36,690 bases of DNA from Treponema sp. (GCA_031257675.1 JAIROG010000012.1:1-36690); one strand, 5' to 3'. Shown: positions 4,290-22,642, counted from the first letter of the stretch. The notes: a model not told the origin generated them from the letters alone. Program-made: numbers and translations.

Positions 4290-5184
4290 AGACGCGCGCA
4301 CTCCTTTTCAGCGCTTCTCCCATTGCCCTGATATTTTCAAGCCAGTCGCGGGAAAGGGGATCAAGCGCGATGACAGCCGCGCCGGTCGCATCAGCCACTG
4401 TTTTCGCGGTCGCGGCGGGAAACTGAGCTTGGACAAAAATAGCCGCAGGCTTTTCCTGTCCGGCTTTTTCAATAAGCGCGTTGAGCGCCCGCGGTCCAGG
4501 CTCCTTGCCGCCGGTCTCCACAGCCTCCTGCCTGATGTTGAATTCATCAAGGAAATAACCGAACGCCGGGTGGTACACAAACACCGGCTTCCCGCTCAAC
4601 GGCGCAAGCTCCTGCCGCAAAGACTCGAATTCCGCGTCGATTCTTGCGACAAGCTCTTGGCAATTCCGTTCATACAGACCCGCGTTCTCCCTGTCAAGCG
4701 CGGAGAGCTGATCCCTGATATGCGCCGCCAGTATCTTCGCGGGTTCCCTCCCAAGCCACGAATGTCTGTCAATGCCGTCATCCTCGCCAGCAACGCCGTG
4801 TTCAAGCGTCCTGAAACGCGCCCCTTGCGTCCCGTCAACAATAGCAAGATTTTTGAAGAGCTTTTCTACCTTCGGACGCAGGCTTATCTCGAATTCAGAA
4901 CCGGAAAGCACCCATGCTCTAGCCTGCGCCAACGCTTCCAACTGTTTCGGACTCGGCTCAAAGGTATGGGGATTCTGACCGGGACCCGCAAGCGTCAGTA
5001 TGTCAAAAACGGAACCTGCGGCGGCGCCGGATTCCCGCGCAATCTGCTCCACAAACCACGCCTGCGGCAAGATGCTCACCGCGACAATGGGTTTTGTTGA
5101 GGATGAATTCGATTTTGAACATGACAGGACAAAAAATATGCACAACAACGCGGACAATCCCGCCGCTTTTATACAACGAATCAT
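4270..5184 (-). CDS. znuA: Zinc ABC transporter substrate-binding lipoprotein (ZnuA type)
   Basis: The 304-residue cluster A-I solute-binding protein captures the metal outside the inner membrane. A signal peptide ends in the lipobox VLSC, so Cys22 should carry lipid. Likely metal ligands are the His residues in NPHTFEPS, DRHSWLG and VYHPAFGY and the Asp in DPLSRDW, the three-His plus Asp/Glu pattern of this family. The long His/Asp-rich loop of many ZnuA proteins is short here. The Shine-Dalgarno GGAG lies inside the last codons of the acyltransferase gene (7-base gap), so expression should depend on the upstream gene. Confidence 0.9.
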   Translation of the reverse strand: MIRCIKAAGLSALLCIFFVLSCSKSNSSSTKPIVAVSILPQAWFVEQIARESGAAAGSVFDILTLAGPGQNPHTFEPSPKQLEALAQARAWVLSGSEFEISLRPKVEKLFKNLAIVDGTQGARFRTLEHGVAGEDDGIDRHSWLGREPAKILAAHIRDQLSALDRENAGLYERNCQELVARIDAEFESLRQELAPLSGKPVFVYHPAFGYFLDEFNIRQEAVETGGKEPGPRALNALIEKAGQEKPAAIFVQAQFPAATAKTVADATGAAVIALDPLSRDWLENIRAMGEALKRSARVYDTSLK

Positions 5185-5191
5185 CTGTTTC

Positions 5192-6559
5192 TCACTCCGC
5201 TTCCGCTCTGCTGTTCGTCAGCTCAAAAAATTCTTCCTCCATGTCAACCATCACTTTTTTTACGGTTTCTTTTCTGTCACGATGATAGGCGTCAAGATGA
5301 CCGCTCAGATTGATGGGGGCGGCTGTTTTGACGATCACCTTGTACGGATGAATGAGCTTTCTTGTTCCGAAAACGCCGCCCATGGTCCGATTCGCAAAAT
5401 CCCACAGGTTCTGCACATATTCAACCTGCTGATACAGCGGACTCTCCGCCGCGGGTACCGGCGCACAGCGGAGATACCACACAAAGTCAACTATTTCAAG
5501 ATGACGGCTCGCATGCCACGCTTCGCCCGCATTGAGATCTGCTATTGAACGGTCAAGCTGAACCATGTCATCCAGCGACGCTTTTCCCGCAACGAAGATG
5601 CGATCCCAACATATCTGCCGCAGGCAGTACATTCTGGTAAAAAAATCGCCCTGTTTCGTTACGCCAAGGGTCTTTGCGGTGCGATCCAAACATTTTTCTA
5701 TAAGAGCGTCAACCCGCCCGGTAAAATTCTCCGCGTTCTTGTCGGCTTTTATGCCATACCGCGCTTCGTTCTTTTCAAGGATGGCATCCCTGCACAGGAG
5801 AAACCTCTCTTCAAGTGTCAATACCCGCCCTTTTCCACGGCTTTCCACCCCGACGCACCGCTCAACGCGCCGCAACAGTTTTTCCACCGGCTTTTTTGCG
5901 CTCGCGTTAAAACAATACTGCACCGAGACCGGCAACACTTCAACCGGACACAGCCTGCCGCTTTTTTCAAGCCGTTCCGCCACAGTGAAGCCTATGCGCG
6001 CCGGACCCTGCTCCAGATGAGGCATCCGGTCTGAAAAGTAAGAAACCTGTCCTTCCGGGGCGATGGCCACCGGGTACGGTCCGTCCATCAAAGCCTTGTA
6101 GATGCGCTCCATGCTGCGCGAGTCGAATTTCGCGTGGTACACGGGCATGGCGCCGACCCTCGGAAGGATAAACCGCGCGAGCGTCCCGCCCCAGCGCAAG
6201 ACTTCATATCCATGCACAAACCTAAGGTGGGGCGGAACCGCGCATACGGCGCCCGCTTTTCCGGCAAGCGCCTTGAGGCGGGACAGGGTGAACCAAGCCA
6301 GTATTTGCGGCTCCGCGCCGTTTGGGTGCAGAAAGGCGGCGATGCAACGGCTTTCGTTTTTGAAGGCGCGGGTAAAACTTTCAATCAAATACCCCCCCCC
6401 CCCCCCGTGCGCTTCGATTTTCGCGCCGCCAATGAATTGGCGCAGATACAAGCGTCCAATCAGGCGGCACAGCAACCGCGCCCATAGGGAAACCCGGGGT
6501 TCAGGCACAAGAATCTCAGGCGCGGCTATTGTTACGGGCCGCATATAAGGTGTATGCAT
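5192..6559 (-). CDS. PlsC-like lysophospholipid/glycerolipid acyltransferase with poly-G tract
   Basis: The 455-residue product resembles 1-acyl-glycerol-3-phosphate acyltransferases. The block HPNGAEPQ stands where the catalytic HX4D normally is, here HX4E, and APEGQVSY matches the substrate-binding PEG motif. It is about twice the usual PlsC length, with a long C-terminal region of unknown role. A 15-G run (6392-6406 on the plus strand as C) encodes five Gly just before the catalytic block, near residue 52-56. At 15 G the frame is open; a change by one or two bases would truncate the protein before the active site. It lies between the glycosyltransferase (11-base gap) and znuA (7-base gap). 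The general fold is fairly sure; the substrate is unknown, and it may act on a glycan or lipoprotein. Confidence 0.75.
   Translation of the reverse strand: MHTPYMRPVTIAAPEILVPEPRVSLWARLLCRLIGRLYLRQFIGGAKIEAHGGGGGYLIESFTRAFKNESRCIAAFLHPNGAEPQILAWFTLSRLKALAGKAGAVCAVPPHLRFVHGYEVLRWGGTLARFILPRVGAMPVYHAKFDSRSMERIYKALMDGPYPVAIAPEGQVSYFSDRMPHLEQGPARIGFTVAERLEKSGRLCPVEVLPVSVQYCFNASAKKPVEKLLRRVERCVGVESRGKGRVLTLEERFLLCRDAILEKNEARYGIKADKNAENFTGRVDALIEKCLDRTAKTLGVTKQGDFFTRMYCLRQICWDRIFVAGKASLDDMVQLDRSIADLNAGEAWHASRHLEIVDFVWYLRCAPVPAAESPLYQQVEYVQNLWDFANRTMGGVFGTRKLIHPYKVIVKTAAPINLSGHLDAYHRDRKETVKKVMVDMEEEFFELTNSRAEAE
6392..6406. repeat. Poly-C/poly-G homopolymer (15) inside the acyltransferase gene
   Basis: Fifteen consecutive C on the plus strand read as GGG x5 in the gene, between codons for His and Tyr. 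Tracts of this length are prone to slipped-strand mispairing and are a classic phase-variation element in Campylobacter, Neisseria and Treponema pallidum. The present length is in frame. Confidence 0.85.
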
Positions 6560-6570
6560 AACGCCGGCTT

Positions 6571-7359
6571 CTACTGTTCCTTTGCCGGAACATCTTTCTT
6601 GTCTTTGAAAAGTTTATAGAATAACAAAAGAAGCGTATAGTAGATATACGGAAACAGCCGCAAGATGTGCACCGGTTTTTTTAAGCAGAACTCAACCCAT
6701 TCAAGACCGTGCTTAAACATGTATTCCGCCGGGTGGCGCTTCTTGTTCGCAAAAACTTCGTATATGTCGCTGCACCAGAGACGAATGCCAAGTCCCAGTT
6801 TGCCGCCCTTGCGCTGTATCCACAATTCCTCGCCCTGAACGCCCTTGCCGACAAGCACAAGGGACGGCGCGGCTTTCCGTATGGCTTCAAGAATGGCGTC
6901 TTCTCTGCTTTTCTTGAAACGTCCGGCGCAACGTCCCACAATTTGCAGGCATGGAAAAGTATGCTTGACATTCTTTTCGGCTTTTTCGAGGATTTTTTTC
7001 TTTCCGCCCATAAGGTACACCGACTGTTCCCGAAGCTCAAGCATGGAAAGAAGCGCGATAATGAAATCAAACGGCATGTACCGAATCGGTTCTTTGCCAA
7101 ATAAAAAACGCGAGCCGCTGACTAAACTTTTCGATATGGGGATAATCACATCAGCGTTAAGCACGTATGAGCGATATTCGCTGTTCCACCGCGCCCAAAG
7201 CAAATCCCACAGGGACAACAGCACGATATGTTTGGCTTCTCCGCTTCCCAGCAAGTCGCCGATAACAATGGGCAAATTTTCTTTTTCAACAATATCTATC
7301 GGCACATTCAACAGGTTTATCCGTTCTTTTACCCGCGCTACGAAGTTTTCAGCATCCAT
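6571..7359 (-). CDS. WecG/TagA/CpsF family glycosyltransferase (GT26)
   Basis: The 262-residue enzyme belongs to the family that transfers N-acetylmannosamine(uronate) or related sugars to lipid-linked acceptors at the cytoplasmic membrane. The family pattern is visible in SYVLNADVIIPISKSL, YLMGGKKKILEKAEKN, the YP.L.I.GR.AG.F-like block (FPCLQIVGRCAGRF), and VLVGKGVQGEELWIQR. The basic C-terminus with a hydrophobic stretch (IYYTLLLLFYKLF) may anchor it to the membrane. Its start lies 22 bases inside rsmE, with GGAGAGTGAAGA before the ATG. With the downstream acyltransferase it suggests an envelope glycan or glycolipid. Sugar and acceptor are unknown. Confidence 0.85.
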   Translation of the reverse strand: MDAENFVARVKERINLLNVPIDIVEKENLPIVIGDLLGSGEAKHIVLLSLWDLLWARWNSEYRSYVLNADVIIPISKSLVSGSRFLFGKEPIRYMPFDFIIALLSMLELREQSVYLMGGKKKILEKAEKNVKHTFPCLQIVGRCAGRFKKSREDAILEAIRKAAPSLVLVGKGVQGEELWIQRKGGKLGLGIRLWCSDIYEVFANKKRHPAEYMFKHGLEWVEFCLKKPVHILRLFPYIYYTLLLLFYKLFKDKKDVPAKEQ

Positions 7360-8123
7360 TCTTCACTCTCCAAAAGCAAGATACGAATTGCGGCCGCCGC
7401 ATATACGGCTGCGGTTTCGGCTCTCAACACATTTGCCCCTATGACAAGGGGCTGAAAACCCGCCTGTACGAACCGTTCGGCTTCTTCCGGGGAAAAGCCC
7501 CCTTCCGGGCCCACAACCGCAACGACACAATCAGGGTTTCCCGCAAGACAGCGGTGAAAGCTGCCGTTCCTCGCAAACGGCTCCTGATGAAGCAATATGC
7601 CCGCCGGATTCTTGCTCCGCATTCTAATAGTCTCCCAATGGGAAAAAACAGCGTCAAACGTACACGCCTCTCTAACGCTGGTCCCAACAGCGGAGCCGCT
7701 TTGCTGACGCGCCTCTTTAACGATCCGCTTCCACCGGTTGATTTTTTCGGCGGCTCCTTCTGTTCCTTTTAATTTCGGCACAGTGTACGCGGAAACAAAG
7801 GGAATAATCTCCGCAACCCCGCCTTCCGCGGCCTGCCGTATGATTTGGTCTATCTTGGCGCCCTTGGGCAGGGCCTGAAAAAGGATTATGGGCGGCGACG
7901 GCGAGCCAGCCATCCGCTCGACAGGCGCAAGACATTCGCAGACAATGGCGTCGCTGTACACGGCTTGCACCAGCGCCCGCGTTTCGGTTCCGTCCGGCAA
8001 GCGCGCCGTGAACACATCGCCCTCACGCAACCGCCGGACATTCGCAAGGTAGTGGTAATCGTCGCCGGTCAAACGCGCCACCCCATGAGCGTCTGCCGGA
8101 CGCGGCAGAAGGAATTGTTTCAT
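7338..8123 (-). CDS. rsmE: 16S rRNA (uracil-1498-N3)-methyltransferase
   Basis: The 261-residue SPOUT-class enzyme methylates U1498 of 16S rRNA with S-adenosylmethionine. An N-terminal PUA-like part precedes the trefoil-knot domain. The knot motifs VVGPEGGFSPEE and LRAETA near the C-terminus are intact, as is QALPKGAKIDQIIRQAAEGGV in the middle. Length is normal. The start overlaps the ctp stop (ATGA) and the end overlaps the glycosyltransferase start by 22 bases, so it sits within a coupled operon of otherwise envelope-related genes. Confidence 0.95.
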   Translation of the reverse strand: MKQFLLPRPADAHGVARLTGDDYHYLANVRRLREGDVFTARLPDGTETRALVQAVYSDAIVCECLAPVERMAGSPSPPIILFQALPKGAKIDQIIRQAAEGGVAEIIPFVSAYTVPKLKGTEGAAEKINRWKRIVKEARQQSGSAVGTSVREACTFDAVFSHWETIRMRSKNPAGILLHQEPFARNGSFHRCLAGNPDCVVAVVGPEGGFSPEEAERFVQAGFQPLVIGANVLRAETAAVYAAAAIRILLLESEEWMLKTS

Positions 8124-9604
8124 GATGCCGCCGGCATATCTGTTTCAGCCTCGTCTTGCAGTTGTCTAAGGGTCTTTGTCCCCCGCATGAGTTGTTTATA
8201 CGAGCCTCCGTTGATGATATTCACCGCTTCCCGCAACTGAACATCGTAGTCAAAGTCGTACACCGGCGCAACCGCCATACGGTTCTGCTCGTTTCTGATG
8301 AGGATGCGCAACAGATCCGCGTCAAGGGAGTATTTCGCGCTTAACCGCGCCGCATACGCGCTTATTTCCGCAAATGAAAGATTCGGACGCTCCTTTACAT
8401 ACGCCGGGATCTCGTTCGCCTCGACAAGCGCCTTGAGGTTTGGCATGTCCTCGTCACTGAATTCGGGCGCTTTCACCTCCCTGTCGGGCGGGATGCCGAT
8501 TTTGTCGATATTCACATCGCTTGGCGTGTAATACCGCGCAACCGTGATTTTGTACCCGTCTCCGCCGCCCTGTATCGGAAAAACCTGTTGCACCGAGCCT
8601 TTCCCATAGGATCTCCCGCCTACAAGATACGCTCTGCCTCTATCCTTTAACGCGCCCGCGACGATCTCCGACGCTGACGCGGATGCGTTGTTGATAAGTA
8701 CAACAACGGGCATATCCACGGGAACCGCAACGTCCTTTCTGGCGTAAAAGACGCGGTTTTCCCTCGGTATTCGGGACTTGGTGCTGACCACGGCGCCGCC
8801 GTCCAGAAACAGATCGCACACGTCAATCGCCGCGTTGAGAAGTCCGCCGTAATTGTTCCGCACGTCAAGGATAAGCGCCTTGTAATTACGCGCGCGGAAA
8901 TACGCCAGCGCCTCTTTCGCCCGCTCGCTGGTCATGGGGGTGAACGTAAGGAGCTTGAGGTAGCCCGTGTCGCCTATCATGGCGTATTTTGCGGTTGGCA
9001 CTTCAATAACGGCTCTCGTAATCGTCACTGGAAATTCGATGTCCGCCCCCCGCCTGATAAGCACCGTAACATCGGCGCCGGGCTTGCCGCGCAACCGCTC
9101 AAGCACCTCGTCCATAGACAGCGCATCGGTCGGCTCGCCGTCAATGTTGATGATAAGGTCGCCGGCGTTGATTCCCGCCCGCCAGCCGGGCGTGTCTTCC
9201 ATAGGAGCGGCCACTTCAACATACGGAGGCTTCCCGTCTTTCGCCTCAACCGGTTTTGAAATATACAAACCAACGCCCCCGAAGGCGCCTGAAGTCGTGT
9301 CGGTTAAATCCAGCATTTCCCGCGAGGACAAAAAGCTCGAATGCGGATCCTGAAGCGCGTTGAGCATTCCGTTCATGGCGCCTTCGTAAAGCGTCTTGGC
9401 GTCAACCTCGTCAACATAATGGTTTTGAATAAATTCAAGTATCTGTTGTATTATTGCTCCGTATTGTTTTGGGCTTTGATTTCCCTGCGCATCCGCATAA
9501 GAAACCGGAGTCACCATCAGGACAACGCCCAGCGCGATGGAGGAAAGCCACCAGAGAATGGGCGTCATCTTTTTATTTGTAAGAAGAAAAACTTGTTTCT
9601 GCAT
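8120..9604 (-). CDS. ctp: C-terminal processing protease (S41 family, PDZ domain)
   Basis: The 494-residue protease probably works in the periplasm on tails of envelope proteins. An N-terminal membrane segment/signal (ILWWLSSIALGVVLMVT) is followed by a PDZ domain (GGVGLYIS ... AGINAGDLIINIDG) and the S41 core. The catalytic Ser lies in NNASASASE and the Lys in SYGKGSVQ, the usual Ser-Lys dyad. The ORF is open back to 9865, but a TTGACT-17-TACAAT promoter ends 6 bases before the ATG at 9604. Upstream codons would therefore not be transcribed, and the transcript is probably leaderless. It is the first gene of the seven-gene minus-strand run. Confidence 0.92.
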   Translation of the reverse strand: MQKQVFLLTNKKMTPILWWLSSIALGVVLMVTPVSYADAQGNQSPKQYGAIIQQILEFIQNHYVDEVDAKTLYEGAMNGMLNALQDPHSSFLSSREMLDLTDTTSGAFGGVGLYISKPVEAKDGKPPYVEVAAPMEDTPGWRAGINAGDLIINIDGEPTDALSMDEVLERLRGKPGADVTVLIRRGADIEFPVTITRAVIEVPTAKYAMIGDTGYLKLLTFTPMTSERAKEALAYFRARNYKALILDVRNNYGGLLNAAIDVCDLFLDGGAVVSTKSRIPRENRVFYARKDVAVPVDMPVVVLINNASASASEIVAGALKDRGRAYLVGGRSYGKGSVQQVFPIQGGGDGYKITVARYYTPSDVNIDKIGIPPDREVKAPEFSDEDMPNLKALVEANEIPAYVKERPNLSFAEISAYAARLSAKYSLDADLLRILIRNEQNRMAVAPVYDFDYDVQLREAVNIINGGSYKQLMRGTKTLRQLQDEAETDMPAAS

Positions 9605-16371: not shown

Positions 16372-16869
16372 TCACCCGTTCAACGCGGTTCCGCACTCAG
16401 AGCAAAACTTCGCGCGAAGCGCCGTTATTTCAACGCCGCAAGACGGGCATTTTTTCTGGAGCGCCGCGCCGCACTCAGAACAAAACTTCGCCGCAGAACC
16501 CGCCAATTCAGCGCCGCAAAACGGACATTTTTTCTTTTCCGCCGCTGCCGGCGCATCTTGCCCGCCCGTTGCAAGGACGGGCGTTGCCGCCGACGGTTCC
16601 GCCGGCTTATTTTTGGCGGCATCCGGCGCGCTGCGCCGCTCCTCCGCCTTAAACACTCTTTTAAAAAATCGCTTGATTTTATGCCAAAACACAGCGACAG
16701 CGGTACCGCTCGCTATGACCGCGCCGGCCACTATCTGAATGACGTACGTCATTGTTGACGGATCCAGATACGCCGCTCCATTCACCAGCAGCAAGAACTG
16801 GCAAAAAACAAAAAGCGCCAAAGCAAGAGCAAGATTCAAAGTCATTCCGGCTTTCTTTTTAAACTTCAT
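16372..16869 (-). CDS. Membrane protein with double zinc ribbon
   Basis: The 165-residue protein has two hydrophobic segments (about 9-32 and 43-62, with AAYLDPSTMTYVIQIV between), a basic stretch (HKIKRFFKRVF), a low-complexity Ala/Pro linker and a C-terminal double zinc ribbon. The ribbon has KCPFCGAE...KFCSECGAA and KCPSCGVE...KFCSECGTA, four CxxC pairs binding two zinc ions. The layout suggests a small membrane anchor presenting ribbons to the cytoplasm; partners are unknown. AAGGAGATGCATT before the ATG is a good ribosome binding site, and TTGAGC-16-TATACG upstream is a plausible promoter. Confidence 0.7.
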   Translation of the reverse strand: MKFKKKAGMTLNLALALALFVFCQFLLLVNGAAYLDPSTMTYVIQIVAGAVIASGTAVAVFWHKIKRFFKRVFKAEERRSAPDAAKNKPAEPSAATPVLATGGQDAPAAAEKKKCPFCGAELAGSAAKFCSECGAALQKKCPSCGVEITALRAKFCSECGTALNG

Positions 16870-17038: not shown

Positions 17039-17437
17039 CTATTCAGCCCTGCCGCCGGAAACGAAAGAAGCGGGATTCGGGTACAGCCTCCACACAACCG
17101 CTCCCATTATGTCCGGCAGAGGAATAAAACCGATCTCCCGGCTGTCACGGGAACGCCCGCTGTTGTCTCCAATGAGATAGACCCCTCTCTCCCGGTCAAC
17201 AGCCGCCACCCGCTTGACCAGCCTTTCACGGAAAGGGTTGTTTTTATTTGTAATGACAATATCTCCTGTCTGCGGCGGGCGCCCCCGGCGCAGGACGAAC
17301 ACAATGTCGCCGTCATGCAAGGCGTCCCGCATGCTGTCTCCGTTGACTATCGCCAAACAAAAGACAAACCGGTTTACGGCAAGTATGAACGAACACACGG
17401 CAAGCCAGAACAAGCCGCTCCGTTTATTCATGCGCAT
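17039..17437 (-). CDS. lepB: Signal peptidase I (S26 family)
   Basis: The 132-residue protein is short for LepB but has the core: one N-terminal membrane anchor (FWLAVCSFILAVNRFVFCLAI), the catalytic Ser in NGDSMRDAL, the Lys in RLVKRVAAV and box E GDNSGRSRDSREIG. Compact forms of this size exist in Gram-positive bacteria and spirochaetes. It follows the cytidylyltransferase by 225 bases that hold no recognised gene; an 83-codon ORF there (17428-17679) has no family features. Whether it is specialised for one substrate is unknown. Confidence 0.85.
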   Translation of the reverse strand: MRMNKRSGLFWLAVCSFILAVNRFVFCLAIVNGDSMRDALHDGDIVFVLRRGRPPQTGDIVITNKNNPFRERLVKRVAAVDRERGVYLIGDNSGRSRDSREIGFIPLPDIMGAVVWRLYPNPASFVSGGRAE

Positions 17438-17662
17438 ATCATTCCATTGACGGATCCCGAACAGAAACCAGCGTCCTCCATGTATACGGAAGAGCGCAAC
17501 GCTCGAAAGTTTTTCGGGATGGACTGCTCCATAATCAGGCGGGATCCAAGCCCGCCATAATAACCGCTTGCCGTATCACCAGCGCGGCTCCTACCGTATA
17601 ATGCCGGAAACATCTCTGGATGCCGTAAAGCGCTCCGGTTGCGCGAAATTTGAAGCGGGCTT

Positions 17663-18454
17663 TCAATAGCGGGTTTCATGCCGGCCGACAGTCTTTTCAG
17701 CGATCAATAAATCATTATAATTGTCTATTTCGAACCACCCCCGCTTAATTCTCAACGCATGCAACGCCGCTCCGCTGTCAATAAGCCCTTGCAATAAATC
17801 CGTCATGTACATTTTCCGGTAAACGCGCGTGGTGCGCCAGAGAGGGATATTCGCCGCGCTTCGCCGTTCCGCCTCGTCCGCAAGCGCCACGAGAGACGTA
17901 AGTCCAGTTTGTTGAAACCGCATTAACCCGATATACTGAGACTCGATTCCGGAAAGCGATTTCGCTTTTTGGCCTATCTCAGTCAAGACGCCCTCAGCGT
18001 CAATTTTAAGCGTTTCCGCGTCGCTCAAAGGATCCTCAGAACGTTCATTCCAGTATCCATGCCAATCGTCATCAACAACAACAGACGCCGGATATGATAC
18101 GTCCAGTACTTTTCTCAACACCTCCTCTTCATAAATTATATCACCGTAAGATATAACAATGTCATCCCGCATTTCATCGCGGGCGCACATAAGACTATAC
18201 ACCATATTGGTAGTCTCATATTCTTTATTGAGACAAAATGAGACGTTCACGCCAGACAAATGCTCCCTTAAAACTTCATGTCGGTAGCCGCATACAATCA
18301 AAATGTCTTCTTCCCGAACGCCGCACCGCTTCATTACATCAATCTGGCGGTTCACAATGCTTTTCCCTGAAACGGGAACCATACACTTCGGCATATTATC
18401 CGTTAAAGGACGCAAGCGCGTCCCTTGTCCCGCCGCTAAAATAATAACCCGCAT
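17663..18454 (-). CDS. CTP:phosphoglutamine cytidylyltransferase (Cj1416-like)
   Basis: The 263-residue nucleotidyltransferase opens with the NTP-binding signature ILAAGQGTRLRPLTDNMPK. Further blocks, ETTNMVYSLMCA, ISYGDIIYEEE, VVDDDWHGYW, PLSDAETLKI, IESQYIGLMRF and MYMTDLLQGLI, resemble Campylobacter jejuni Cj1416, as recalled. That enzyme joins CTP and L-glutamine phosphoramide (made by Cj1418) to give a gamma-glutamyl CDP-amidate. A phosphocholine cytidylyltransferase (LicC) would share the fold, but the next two genes match Cj1417 and Cj1418, which argues for phosphoramidate synthesis. It begins 1 base after the amidotransferase gene, so it is co-translated. Confidence 0.8.
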   Translation of the reverse strand: MRVIILAAGQGTRLRPLTDNMPKCMVPVSGKSIVNRQIDVMKRCGVREEDILIVCGYRHEVLREHLSGVNVSFCLNKEYETTNMVYSLMCARDEMRDDIVISYGDIIYEEEVLRKVLDVSYPASVVVDDDWHGYWNERSEDPLSDAETLKIDAEGVLTEIGQKAKSLSGIESQYIGLMRFQQTGLTSLVALADEAERRSAANIPLWRTTRVYRKMYMTDLLQGLIDSGAALHALRIKRGWFEIDNYNDLLIAEKTVGRHETRY

Positions 18455-18455
18455 C

Positions 18456-19058
18456 TTATATTCCCTCCATTAAACTTTGAATTATTTCAATATCCCTTTT
18501 CCGACTTTTCTCCTCCCGTTCGGGATGCCACATGACGCCCATAACAGCATAAGACTTATGCCTCATCGCTTCAATAATCCCGTCGCCGCTTGCAGCCAAG
18601 GGGAGAAAGTCACTTTGGAGTTTTGTGACGCCATAGTTATGATAACTATTCACCTCTGTCTCTTCTCCCTTGAAACGCAAACGATGACGAGCCGCCGTAT
18701 GCCCTTCAACTTTTTGTAAAACCCCTCCAAAAAAGCAATGAATAAACTGCATGCCTCTGCATACGCCTAAAACAGGAAGATTTTCAGCTATTGCATATTC
18801 TAAAAGCCGCCGCTCTGTTTCATCCCGTTCAGGCGCGGCGCCGCCGTATGCGACAAGATCATTGCCTCCGGTAAAAATCAACCCCGCAGGATTCAGCATT
18901 GCAAGAATATCCACCGCAACAGCCGCATGATTCGGCGCCGCAACCGGCGCATAACCGCAATCCATAACAAAACGGCTCCAATTCTGATCAAGGCAATCAC
19001 GGCGTTCTCCGTAGGATTCCACCACCTCCACCCGCTGACTCAATAACACTATTTTCAT
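18456..19058 (-). CDS. Gamma-glutamyl-CDP-amidate hydrolase (Cj1417-like class I glutamine amidotransferase fold)
   Basis: The 200-residue protein has the class I amidotransferase triad: nucleophile Cys in GVCRGMQF, His and Glu in MWHPERE. It lacks a synthetase partner. The N-terminal LSQRVEVVESYGERRDCLDQ and IFTGGNDLVAYGG blocks fit the PuuD/Cj1417 group, which hydrolyses gamma-glutamyl bonds. In C. jejuni, Cj1417 frees cytidine diphosphoramidate from glutamate. Alone it could be read as a gamma-glutamyl-GABA hydrolase; the kinase on one side (13-base gap) and cytidylyltransferase on the other (1 base) favour the phosphoramidate role. Confidence 0.8.
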   Translation of the reverse strand: MKIVLLSQRVEVVESYGERRDCLDQNWSRFVMDCGYAPVAAPNHAAVAVDILAMLNPAGLIFTGGNDLVAYGGAAPERDETERRLLEYAIAENLPVLGVCRGMQFIHCFFGGVLQKVEGHTAARHRLRFKGEETEVNSYHNYGVTKLQSDFLPLAASGDGIIEAMRHKSYAVMGVMWHPEREEKSRKRDIEIIQSLMEGI

Positions 19059-19071
19059 CTTGCCCCTCGCA

Positions 19072-21231
19072 TCACTTGATTACTTCCACTTTTTTGAGCG
19101 CACAATCCAACTCAAGATATTCCGCCTGCGCGATCCGGTTATAGAGCTTCTCCCCCGCTCCAACAACAGCGGGAAGCGACAATTCCCCGGCGCGGATCGA
19201 CATATGCGAATTTGCGCCGCCGTATTTTGTAATAAATCCTGCTATATTTTTTGAAAATATCCAGTCATAGCCGGGATCCGCGCTTGGTATCATCAGAATG
19301 GAGCCTTCCAACTCGCTGTCAGTCTCAAAACAGACCGGACCCGCGGCTTTATTCAACGTGATAAAATTGGGGGAGGCGTCATCCAAATGGAAATAATAAC
19401 AATCATCCGGCTTTGTGATTACCGGCGGCATGGTAAATCCCAGCGTGTCTTGGTGGCGTTCCTTCCCTTGCGCTATTGATTTTCCTATGCTGTCGCCCAC
19501 ATCCTTTTCAGAATTATACAACCCCTTCCATATTTCAATATCCATATAAGAAAGCTCTTCCTTGGCAAACCCGCATTCGGATCCGATCTCGCCAATCATT
19601 ACGAGCGCGTCGGAAACGTTTTTTGAAAATACAAATTTCGAATATTCACGCCCTTCTATGGCGCCTTTCAAAAACTTAAAGAGCGACAACACATCATCAG
19701 ACAAATCAACCTCTTTTAGCAGCGTTCTAATGTGTTCCAACTGGGAAACCGTCACACGGAACTCCCGCCCGTATAACGCCGTATTTCTCGCGTTTTCCCA
19801 ATTGAAGTAGCGATCCGGCGCTTCGTCATACCGGGGAGAGCATATATCATACATCCCGGGCCGCAAATGCCCGTATTTATTCAAAAACGCTTCTTTCCTT
19901 AATTGAGCGAAGTCTTCCGTCATATTCGTACTGACCGTATTCAGACTGGCTATATACCCGTGATATTCTTCCTGTGAAAATACTCCGCAGGAAACAAACG
20001 ATTTCAGCATCTGCACCGCGACAAATCCGGCCCGCGCAAGCCCGGCGAACGGCAGAGTCCCATAGCGTCGGCAGTCCTCCAGCAGCCAGTATACTTTTCC
20101 AATGCGGCTTAGATCGCTGCTCATTATTTCCTGATGGCGCCGCTTCAGAATATCTATCTTGCTGGCGTCCGCCGTCCACAGTCCGTTGCTCATGTCAATA
20201 ATACGATTAGTCAAGTCCCTCAAACTTTCCGTCAGCATCCGGCATTCCTCTTGGCTAAAGCCGTACTTCCGCAACACCTCCACCCGTTCCCGCAAATCAA
20301 ACGTGTAACAAGAAAATATGATTTCAAATTCAACTTTATCGTGCATTTCAGGATGTTCTATCAATTGGTTTAAGTAATAATTCACCAGTTTATCCGCCAA
20401 ATCTGTCTCTATGCTTTTGGGAATGAATGAATTGAAGCTCACTCTGGCGTCTATATACGGCAATCCCGCAAAATCTATTATCAACGGAAATGAACGCAAG
20501 TCTTTATAGCCATAGTTGTCCCGCTGATACGCCCATGTCCCGTCTGTAACCAAATTTTTATACAAGGACAACGCCAGCGGTTTTGGACGCACTCCGACAA
20601 TTTCCGCTGGATTCCAATCAGGCATAACGCCGTATACCGGCCTATCCCCGAAAATATACGGTTTCTTCCCCAAACTTTTCCGTATATACCTCGCAGTCCT
20701 TTTCAGGATCGCTTCTTGCCTGGCAATATCTTTGCAGACGCGCTTCATAACCAACGGCCTGACCTGCAATATGTACACCTCTTGATTGGCGGAAACCGCG
20801 AATTCAATATCCAACGCTTGGCTCCGAAAGTGCTCCGCTATTTCTTCAGCCGCCCCTATCACCTTGTCCAGAATGGGAAAGCCTGTCGCGCCTCCGTATC
20901 CTTTAAACTGGTAAAAGATTTTTAGATCAGTTCCCGATCCTGATGTAACTGAAGACGTCGAACCGGTTTTATCATCATAATTAACCACATAATAATTTCC
21001 GCCCGTATTGGGATCCATCGTAAACAGCACCCCGCTTAATGCGACATCCCGCAACATAGGCTGAATGAACACCTCATCCTCCGCTGTTTGCCGCTCTCCA
21101 TACGAAGCTATCACCCGTTCCACCGCATCGTTTACGCCTTGCTCTCCACGTACATGCAACACCGACTCATACATGCCGGCTTTTGACTCCTCTCCGGTGT
21201 CTTCGCTTATGGCGCTCGACCGTACTATCAT
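19072..21231 (-). CDS. L-glutamine kinase (Cj1418-like, PEP-synthase fold), main part
   Basis: The 719-residue ORF covers all but the N-terminus of a PEP-synthase-like kinase. The ATP-grasp part starts at once with IVRSSAISEDTGEESKAGMYESVL and ends with LDIEFAVSANQEVYILQVRP. A central domain includes GVMPDWNPAEIVG, and the C-terminal swivelling domain has the phospho-carrier His in GGANSHMSIRAGELSLPAVVG (His about 676). Cj1418 of C. jejuni makes L-glutamine phosphoramide from ATP and glutamine and is about 770 residues; 60 + 719 residues here match that. The ORF is intact to the stop. Its ATG directly follows a TAA that ends the upstream 60-codon part, in the same frame. The poly-G tract 10 bases upstream may act as a ribosome binding site. 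Confidence 0.78.
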   Translation of the reverse strand: MIVRSSAISEDTGEESKAGMYESVLHVRGEQGVNDAVERVIASYGERQTAEDEVFIQPMLRDVALSGVLFTMDPNTGGNYYVVNYDDKTGSTSSVTSGSGTDLKIFYQFKGYGGATGFPILDKVIGAAEEIAEHFRSQALDIEFAVSANQEVYILQVRPLVMKRVCKDIARQEAILKRTARYIRKSLGKKPYIFGDRPVYGVMPDWNPAEIVGVRPKPLALSLYKNLVTDGTWAYQRDNYGYKDLRSFPLIIDFAGLPYIDARVSFNSFIPKSIETDLADKLVNYYLNQLIEHPEMHDKVEFEIIFSCYTFDLRERVEVLRKYGFSQEECRMLTESLRDLTNRIIDMSNGLWTADASKIDILKRRHQEIMSSDLSRIGKVYWLLEDCRRYGTLPFAGLARAGFVAVQMLKSFVSCGVFSQEEYHGYIASLNTVSTNMTEDFAQLRKEAFLNKYGHLRPGMYDICSPRYDEAPDRYFNWENARNTALYGREFRVTVSQLEHIRTLLKEVDLSDDVLSLFKFLKGAIEGREYSKFVFSKNVSDALVMIGEIGSECGFAKEELSYMDIEIWKGLYNSEKDVGDSIGKSIAQGKERHQDTLGFTMPPVITKPDDCYYFHLDDASPNFITLNKAAGPVCFETDSELEGSILMIPSADPGYDWIFSKNIAGFITKYGGANSHMSIRAGELSLPAVVGAGEKLYNRIAQAEYLELDCALKKVEVIK

Positions 21232-21414
21232 TTAATAAACACCCCCCCCCCCCCCCGAATCGCCAGTCCAACCCTCCGCCGCTACCTTTTCCAAGACGCC
21301 ATCTTTATTTTCACGCCATTCTTTAATGGTGAAAATAACCATCGGCAAAATACGCGCTGATGTTATTTTGTCCCGTAACGCTTGGAGCGTCATGGCTTTT
21401 GTGCTGTTCGCCAT
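21232..21414 (-). CDS. N-terminal segment of the L-glutamine kinase, separated by poly-G and a stop
   Basis: This 60-codon ORF has the strong ribosome binding site AAAGGAGGAAAAATA before its ATG and encodes LQALRDKITSARILPMVIF and IKEWRENKDGVLEKV, the kind of N-terminal strand-helix that precedes VRSS in Cj1418-type kinases. It then runs through the G tract (GGGGG) to VY and a TAA immediately before the ATG of the main ORF. It is therefore most likely the true start of the kinase gene. Either the TAA is a nonsense change, or the protein is made as two chains by stop-start coupling. See the finding on the tract. Confidence 0.65.
   Translation of the reverse strand: MANSTKAMTLQALRDKITSARILPMVIFTIKEWRENKDGVLEKVAAEGWTGDSGGGGGVY
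21242..21256. repeat. Poly-C/poly-G homopolymer (15) at the kinase split
   Basis: Fifteen C on the plus strand read as G in the gene. With 15 G the upstream ORF ends at TAA touching the downstream ATG. With 14 it would end at a TGA overlapping that ATG. With 16 it would run past the ATG out of frame for about 20 codons. The tract is the same length as the one at 6392. Confidence 0.85.
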
Positions 21415-21498: not shown

Positions 21499-22642
21499 GG
21501 GGTGTAATACCCATGTGCGTTTACTTAGGGACAAGCAGCCTATAAAGCGCCGAGCCGTTTTCTTTTAGTATTGGCGCATAGAACCGCAACTTGATGTATA
21601 TTTTCTAACAGATCCATGAAGGAGATGGTCTCAAGAAGTATATGTTTTACCACAACCAACAGGAGCCGTTGTTCATTCCATAACGACCACGCTTTATCCG
21701 GAACGCTTCCCTGTAGAGGGGGAAAAGCGCCCTTTGTCTACCCACGTTTCACAAAGGGGGCCGCCGATAACAGTTTCCCGTAACCATACGCGGGCGCTCG
21801 CTTCAACACGCGCCGGTATCTCATAGTATTTAAACAACGACTTTATCCGCTTGAACGCCAACTCTATCTGCCGCCGGCGCCGGTATACATCCAGTATCAA
21901 TTCAGTGGCCGCTTCCCGTATTGACGTAACTAGCGCCACATACCGGTTATAGCGCCGTGCCCAACGCTTTGTCCCCCTGTTTCCTCATCCGGGTCTTCCT
22001 CAAGCTCTCAAGACCTTTTTCCTCCGCTTCTTTCGTTTTCCGCAACACATAAACCGTAACGGTTTGTATCCCCCCTCATATTCATAATACAGCCCTTTGT
22101 TCCAAAGCTCTTGAAATTACTAACCTTCTCTCCCTGTTCCGTCCCGGTCAGCGCCATCTCCTTCATCCCCAGATCAAACAGCCCTATCGCGTAACACGGC
22201 CGGCAATCCGCCTTGTCGCTCCCGCGCGCCGGTTCGCCGCCAGCGTCTGCCAGATACGCCTTCCGCTCCCCAAGCCCATCCCGGCGCTTCCCGGATCGCT
22301 CGGTTGTTCCGGTATATGCTTTCACACAGCCGCCGAAGCCATTCCCCGCGCTTCTGAAACCTCCTGAATACCGCTTTCTTGCTTATCGAACAAACATCGG
22401 CTAGCTGTAATAATGCCGCAGTCCCGCTAAAGGATTTCCCTTCGCTCAGCCGCGGTAAATCCAGGGCGTTTTTGATTTCCCGCCCCCGTCCGTACCAATG
22501 CCCCAAGCTCTTTTGCCTTGTCTTCCCATCCTTCGGGCATGACTGACAGCAATCGCTTAAAACCGCTTGCTCCCCTCTCATTTCTTGAGCTTATCATACC
22601 TTTACGGCTTTGGCAAGTAAACGCATATGGGTATTACACCCC
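21499..22642 (-). mobile_element. IS4-type insertion sequence, decayed, with 28-bp terminal inverted repeats
   Basis: The left end GGGGTGTAATACCCATGTGC... (21499-21526) and right end (22615-22642, reverse complement) match at 27 of 28 bases. They bound a 1144-base element. No target-site duplication is visible at the flanks. It sits 85 bases upstream of the kinase ATG and so lies across or beside the expected promoter of the phosphoramidate genes. Confidence 0.8.
21694..22581 (-). pseudogene. IS4-family transposase, frameshifted
   Basis: Fragments in three frames of the minus strand reconstruct a transposase. The N-terminal part (SFSGTAALLQLADVCSISKK, RRFQKRGEWLRRL) is near 22300-22470, a middle part (ALTGTEQGEKVSNFKSF) near 22100, and the C-terminal IS4 signature YRRRRQIELAFKRIKSLF near 21830-21890. 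The last has the correct Y-2-R-3-E-6-K spacing with the catalytic Glu. At least two frameshifts separate them, so the enzyme is inactive. Confidence 0.8.

Follow-up and report, generated by a model that had tools for sequence, protein, structure and literature searches.

Gene content of the locus

The window analysed here, a 36,690-nucleotide stretch of Treponema sp. (GCA_031257675.1, JAIROG010000012.1:1-36690), belongs to a gut-type draft genome of 2.4 Mb that is 83% complete (G000). Three neighbouring genes on its minus strand (17663-21414) form a cassette whose predicted products, an L-glutamine kinase, a gamma-glutamyl-CDP-amidate hydrolase and a CTP:phosphoglutamine cytidylyltransferase, would synthesise cytidine diphosphate (CDP)-amidate, CDP-NH2. 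Open reading frames (ORFs) were found at 21231-19072, 19058-18456 and 18454-17663, their spacings of 13 and 1 bases agreeing with an earlier note on this DNA, and the catalytic motifs that it listed were present and kept in nearly all relatives. The kinase body (19072-21231, minus strand, 719 codons) comprised the rest of the ATP-grasp domain, a central domain and a phosphoenolpyruvate (PEP)-utilizer phosphohistidine domain with the GGANSHMS motif, and matched model positions 61-788 of NF004508/PRK05849, which we take, in view also of the conserved trio, to represent the Cj1418-type glutamine kinase. Both the body alone (899 bits) and the gene read through its internal stop (935 bits) scored above the curated cut-off of 501 bits. 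The hydrolase (18456-19058, minus strand) has a class-I glutamine amidotransferase fold with the catalytic Cys in GVCRGMQ and the motifs CRG, NSYH and HPE (in WHPER), and its top family was NF045546, the gamma-glutamyl-CDP-amidate hydrolases (133 bits, E=1e-38). The cytidylyltransferase (17663-18454, minus strand) was recognised as a generic NTP_transferase (PF12804/PF00483) with a nucleotidyltransferase fold and the LAAGQGTRL motif; profile searches gave no specific family model for it, and its putative specificity is suggested by its place in the conserved trio. No solved CDP-amidate enzyme was among the matches of a PDB search with the cassette proteins.

Together, the family matches, motifs and conserved trio support well the gene names and pathway proposed in the earlier note. 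If the pair were instead a PEP-synthase-like kinase and a LicC-like cytidylyltransferase acting on choline or some other head group, this would account for the weak resemblance between the kinase and PEP synthase and for the top PDB match of the cytidylyltransferase, a CTP:phosphocholine cytidylyltransferase (63 bits). However, the kinase scored just 69 bits against PEP synthase, the hydrolase has the CDP-amidate hydrolases as its top family and the three genes are conserved together, which makes this alternative highly improbable. The cytidylyltransferase was 58-62% identical to those of Lachnospiraceae cassettes that contain a 3'-kinase and approximately 37% identical to those of the nearest non-Treponema relatives of its kinase. 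The cassette is likely a mosaic in which the cytidylyltransferase gene was replaced.

Interruption of the kinase gene

An N-terminal kinase fragment of 60 codons (21235-21414, minus strand) matched NF004508 positions 11-55 (E=6e-8), and its start region aligned with the intact kinase gene of a second genome of the genus (G004, 92% complete, cassette locus L082). A good ribosome-binding site, AAGGAGG, lies upstream, and together with the alignment it indicates that 21414, the end point given in the earlier note, is likely the true start codon. A single intact gene from that start was not borne out, as an in-frame TAA (21234-21232) separates the fragment from the body, which resumes at the ATG at 21231. 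Just before this stop is a G15 homopolymer (21242-21256, minus strand; C15 on the plus strand), part of a 24-nucleotide in-frame insertion relative to G004 that consists of G14 and TGTTTATTAA. The G004 kinase is uninterrupted (773 residues), reads SWGKDS-V-IVRSS without a break and is 87% identical to the kinase body of the window. A TAA in the kinase match of a further genome, G015, was considered as a second interrupted case and rejected, the kinase ORF there being uninterrupted.

When the G-run was varied in silico from 9 to 21, no length opened the full kinase frame, which rules out simple on/off phase switching of the kinase through this run. The kinase copy is off, N-truncated or mis-assembled, and full-length kinase is probably not made from it. 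An assembly error in the run is possible, while slippage-prone runs are likely to be real.

Distribution of the cassette and two architectures

An alignment of spirochaete kinases was used to survey 84,980 species genomes and gave 176 relatives, of which the best 80 loci were examined. The relatives belonged to Bacillota, Pseudomonadota, Nitrospirota, Planctomycetota, Verrucomicrobiota, Acidobacteriota, Spirochaetota and other phyla, and included Pseudomonas, Clostridia, Paenibacillus and Nitrospira. The order kinase, hydrolase, cytidylyltransferase was nearly always kept among the 80 loci, and its retention in most of them across many phyla places the cassette far beyond chance. In a 2022 review the glutamine kinase is termed specific to C. 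jejuni (PMC9561416), and the reviews consulted describe the CDP-amidate pathway in Campylobacter only; the presence of the trio in dozens of loci across phyla shows that the kinase family is not Campylobacter-specific. The cassette thus does occur outside Campylobacter, as noted earlier, but it is common there. Within Spirochaetota the kinase was rare, with 3 positive genomes among 393 sampled; the order had 3 among 99, and in the genus it was found in G000 and G004 only, of 12 genomes.

Six-frame profile searches for an APS-kinase-like (Cj1415-like) 3'-kinase and a methyltransferase detected both at 65 of the 80 loci. Cassettes with both genes are referred to as type A and cassettes without both as type B. 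Nine type B loci had upstream sequence (L082 of G004, L083, L084, L085, L089, L094, L103, L104 and L107), while L115 (too little upstream sequence), L127, L143 and L161 (contig edge or unresolved), and L099 and L111 (3'-kinase alone detected) were set aside as undecided. Type A loci often also carried sulfotransferase-family genes: upstream of 30 such loci, 16 of 76 proteins matched the sulfotransferase family and three matched PF04464. At all nine type B loci the upstream 4 kb contained a gene for a CDP-X phosphotransferase, a PF04464 protein in eight and a LicD protein in L104, and the families with at least two matches among the type B upstream proteins did not include sulfotransferases. 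The contrast between the two types gave a Fisher p of approximately 1e-6 without correction for relatedness. A literature search that covered part of the literature returned no paper linking the cassette to sulfotransferases or PF04464.

In L082 to L085, the last three from gut Firmicutes, the PF04464 protein is a fusion with a YidC-like domain and its gene adjoins the cassette, and the kinase of the window groups with those of these loci in the kinase tree (SH-aLRT 100). The other type B spirochaetes group with L089 in a second clade. In G192, a type A spirochaete, a sulfotransferase-like ORF is followed in succession by the APS-kinase-like gene, the methyltransferase, the kinase, the hydrolase and the cytidylyltransferase, all identified by eye except the kinase and methyltransferase.

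Several individual loci had unusual arrangements. In L117 (9419-12307, Bryobacterales) the glutamine kinase apparently has an APS-kinase-like domain as an N-terminal fusion, which supports a functional link between the two. The Treponema cassette of L094 lies just downstream of an apparent 2-aminoethylphosphonate (AEP) operon (4532-8770) with decarboxylase-like, transaminase-like, PEP mutase and PntC-like genes, placing two unusual phosphorus groups at one locus. Near the cassettes of L103 (13664-19056) and L107 (6026-8785), a YidC-like domain is joined to one of the sulfatase superfamily (approximately 900 amino acids), a possible further phosphotransferase.

A candidate transferase and the absence of the O-methyl pathway genes

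The APS-kinase family NF004041, to which the Cj1415 type belongs, was absent from all 12 genomes of the genus (8 of 14 control genomes were positive), and the methyltransferase was absent from G000 and G004, although the same query was positive in six other genomes. The statement in the earlier note that these genes lie outside the window therefore held and can be extended to the whole of both assemblies, while its designation of the cassette as O-methyl phosphoramidate-type is unsupported. A standard O-methyl pathway whose two genes were missed would fit with an incomplete draft and with the majority of relatives that carry both. Against this, both are also lacking from the more complete G004 and from the sequence on either side of the remaining type B cassettes, and the positive controls were detected, so that such an oversight is quite unlikely.

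A YidC-TagF-like fusion (PF02096 and PF04464) was found on another contig of G000, C58, and in G004, and in 0 of the 10 other genomes of the genus. The C58 fusion is intact, 81% identical to its G004 homologue, and the motifs YMFH, RPHP and SDWS are kept in both copies. The PF04464 domain scored 24.5 bits in the G004 fusion (cut-off 22.1) and 51 bits in that of L083. A predicted model of the G004 fusion (pLDDT 71, pTM 0.54) had a capsule synthesis multienzyme and TagF (3l7k, E=3.5e-10) as its top PDB matches. The candidate transferase is likely this fusion, encoded elsewhere in G000, rather than a Campylobacter-type gene.

Proposed pathway and comparison with known systems

In the pathway we propose, the glutamine kinase would form N-phosphoglutamine, the cytidylyltransferase would convert this to CDP-N-glutamine, and the hydrolase would release glutamate to leave CDP-NH2 as the last soluble product. 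A PF04464 (TagF/TagB) or LicD enzyme would then use CDP-NH2 itself as the donor, placing the phosphoramidate on a hydroxyl of a surface glycan or lipid and releasing CMP. The product would be an unmethylated P-NH2 group, formed without 3'-phosphorylation. In G000 the transfer step would fall to the C58 fusion. PF04464 enzymes take plain CDP donors, and a 3'-phosphate is a handle recognised by sulfotransferases; we propose that no 3'-kinase is needed because a plain CDP donor would suffice. We consider it somewhat probable, from sequence comparison, that the cassette is of this kind, a type B cassette for CDP-NH2 synthesis with direct TagF-like or LicD transfer and with the C58 fusion as the candidate enzyme. 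There is about an even chance that CDP-amidate is finished by two routes, one PAPS-like (3'-kinase, methyltransferase and sulfotransferase-family enzyme) and one teichoic-acid-like and unmethylated (PF04464 or LicD, some fused to YidC), with G000 having the second.

Several points weigh against this interpretation. The kinase gene of the window is interrupted, and in G000, which is incomplete, the fusion is on a contig other than that of the cassette. The hydrolase falls below the NF045546 curated cut-off of 250 bits; those of five other cassette loci also scored just 105-131 bits, so a low score is usual for the wider family. The type B loci are mainly in two kinase clades, so the correlation with PF04464 rests on about three independent cases and not nine, and the three PF04464 proteins mentioned above lie near 3'-kinase-type cassettes. 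The PF04464 enzyme could also use another CDP donor, either CDP-AEP (L094, G004) or CDP-glycerol. The earlier suggestion that this organism decorates a surface glycan with a P-N bonded group is accordingly weakened; present production of such a group is doubtful because the kinase is interrupted.

The cassette shares with C. jejuni Cj1415-Cj1418, which serve the O-methyl phosphoramidate capsule, three homologous steps to CDP-NH2 (kinase, cytidylyltransferase and hydrolase). It differs in that no 3'-kinase or cassette-type methyltransferase was detected in G000, in its YidC-TagF-like candidate and in its interrupted kinase. The catalytic domain of the fusion resembles the TagF/TagB CDP-glycerol glycerophosphotransferases in its Pfam match, TagF fold match and conserved His and Asp/Ser motifs, whereas it has a YidC/Oxa1-like membrane domain, is tied to a CDP-amidate cassette and not to CDP-glycerol synthesis, and its donor is a proposed one. 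LicD phosphotransferases (PF04991) are a family distinct from PF04464 but likewise carry out CDP-X dependent transfer, the known members using CDP-choline, and Bacillus renqingensis (L104) has one encoded upstream of its cassette. Type A cassettes follow the logic of PAPS, APS kinase and sulfotransferase by pairing an APS-kinase-like enzyme with sulfotransferase-family genes, while the architecture of the window has neither.

Enzymatic details of the decoration step have been described as unclear (PMC13276843, 2026). Two architectures with distinct candidate transferases make this last step directly testable with named genes. Unmethylated phosphoramidates on Xanthomonas and Shewanella lipopolysaccharide are cited in a passage of PMC3907429, and type B cassettes are a possible genetic basis for them.

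Surroundings of the cassette

In G004 a PntC-AEP-transaminase fusion gene follows the cassette, while the window retains just a probable deletion scar of its first bases (17535-17583, minus strand; blastn alignment of window 17535-18464 to L082 8064-7130), and no copy was found elsewhere in G000. This gene was rejected as a pathway member, since it is present in four other genomes of the genus without the kinase. A signal-peptidase-like (S26) gene (17039-17437, minus strand; TIGR02227, 76 bits) has 86% DNA identity to L082, is syntenic with the gene downstream of the G004 cassette and is probably outside the pathway. Directly upstream of the kinase is a degenerate transposase or insertion-sequence remnant (21789-22642, minus strand) with 88-97% DNA identity to 10018-10746 of L176, a stretch of C58, and C58 itself ends in this related remnant. 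In G004 the YidC-TagF-like fusion, a short ORF, a formyltransferase gene and the cassette are adjacent, and the insertion-sequence copies at the end of C58 and upstream of the kinase suggest that the cluster was split in G000. A direct continuation of the C58 tail upstream of the kinase was rejected, as the join is unsupported and the copies differ.

These features bear on whether the cassette is a decaying remnant in which a G-run insertion with a stop inactivated the kinase and an insertion sequence split the cluster, so that the organism makes no CDP-amidate. The TAA that no tried run length removes, the transposase remnant, the location of the transferase and the probable loss of the PntC-transaminase gene are all in keeping with decay. 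Yet the frames of the hydrolase, the cytidylyltransferase, the body of the kinase and the transferase fusion are open in other respects, and dN/dS ratios relative to G004 are 0.13 for the kinase body and 0.22 for the hydrolase, although these mostly reflect the time before the interruption. Decay is a serious but tentative alternative, and in G000 it is compatible with direct TagF-like or LicD transfer as the best explanation for the relatives.

G-runs across the genome

The G000 genome contained 59 runs of at least 12 G, where far fewer than one is expected by chance when scaled from the window. Their numbers vary widely among relatives, with dozens in some sibling genomes and nearly none in others (counted as runs of exactly 12). 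The formyltransferase-domain gene, which lies directly upstream of the kinase in G004 (L082 3030-3611), has a C14 run there and a C16 run on C58 (L176 8839-9447); neither copy is in frame, and each would open if its run length were a multiple of three.

It is conceivable that re-initiation at the ATG at 21231 is controlled by the kinase run together with the TAA-ATG junction, or that other in-frame alleles exist in the population, giving phase variation at the first step of the pathway. Such switching would fit with the excess of runs, with the two formyltransferase copies, both off, and with Campylobacter, in which phosphoramidate transferases are switched by G-runs (PMC3907429). However, no single run length restores the full kinase, a product from 21231 would lack the conserved N-terminal STKAxTL segment, and the evidence is a single assembled sequence in which homopolymers are error-prone. 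We regard switching as unlikely.

The G-runs of G000 have the appearance of a lineage-specific expansion, possibly of widespread phase variation, and runs close to the end of a contig may be artefacts. The inspected runs have unrelated flanks, and a mobile element flanked by constant sequence was therefore rejected as their source. Besides the run in the kinase, the window has a second one, an in-frame C15 (6392-6406) in an acyltransferase-like gene (5192-6559, minus strand) whose relatives lack it, and the G-run stands where these have a short purine-rich GGGGAAGGG-like stretch.

On the minus strand of the window, 16372-16869 encodes a small membrane protein that contains zinc ribbons and a YLDPSTMTY segment. 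A YLDPSTMTY-like segment also occurs in a small ORF beside the cassette of L083, and the PF04464 proteins of L094, L103 and L107 have one at the N terminus.

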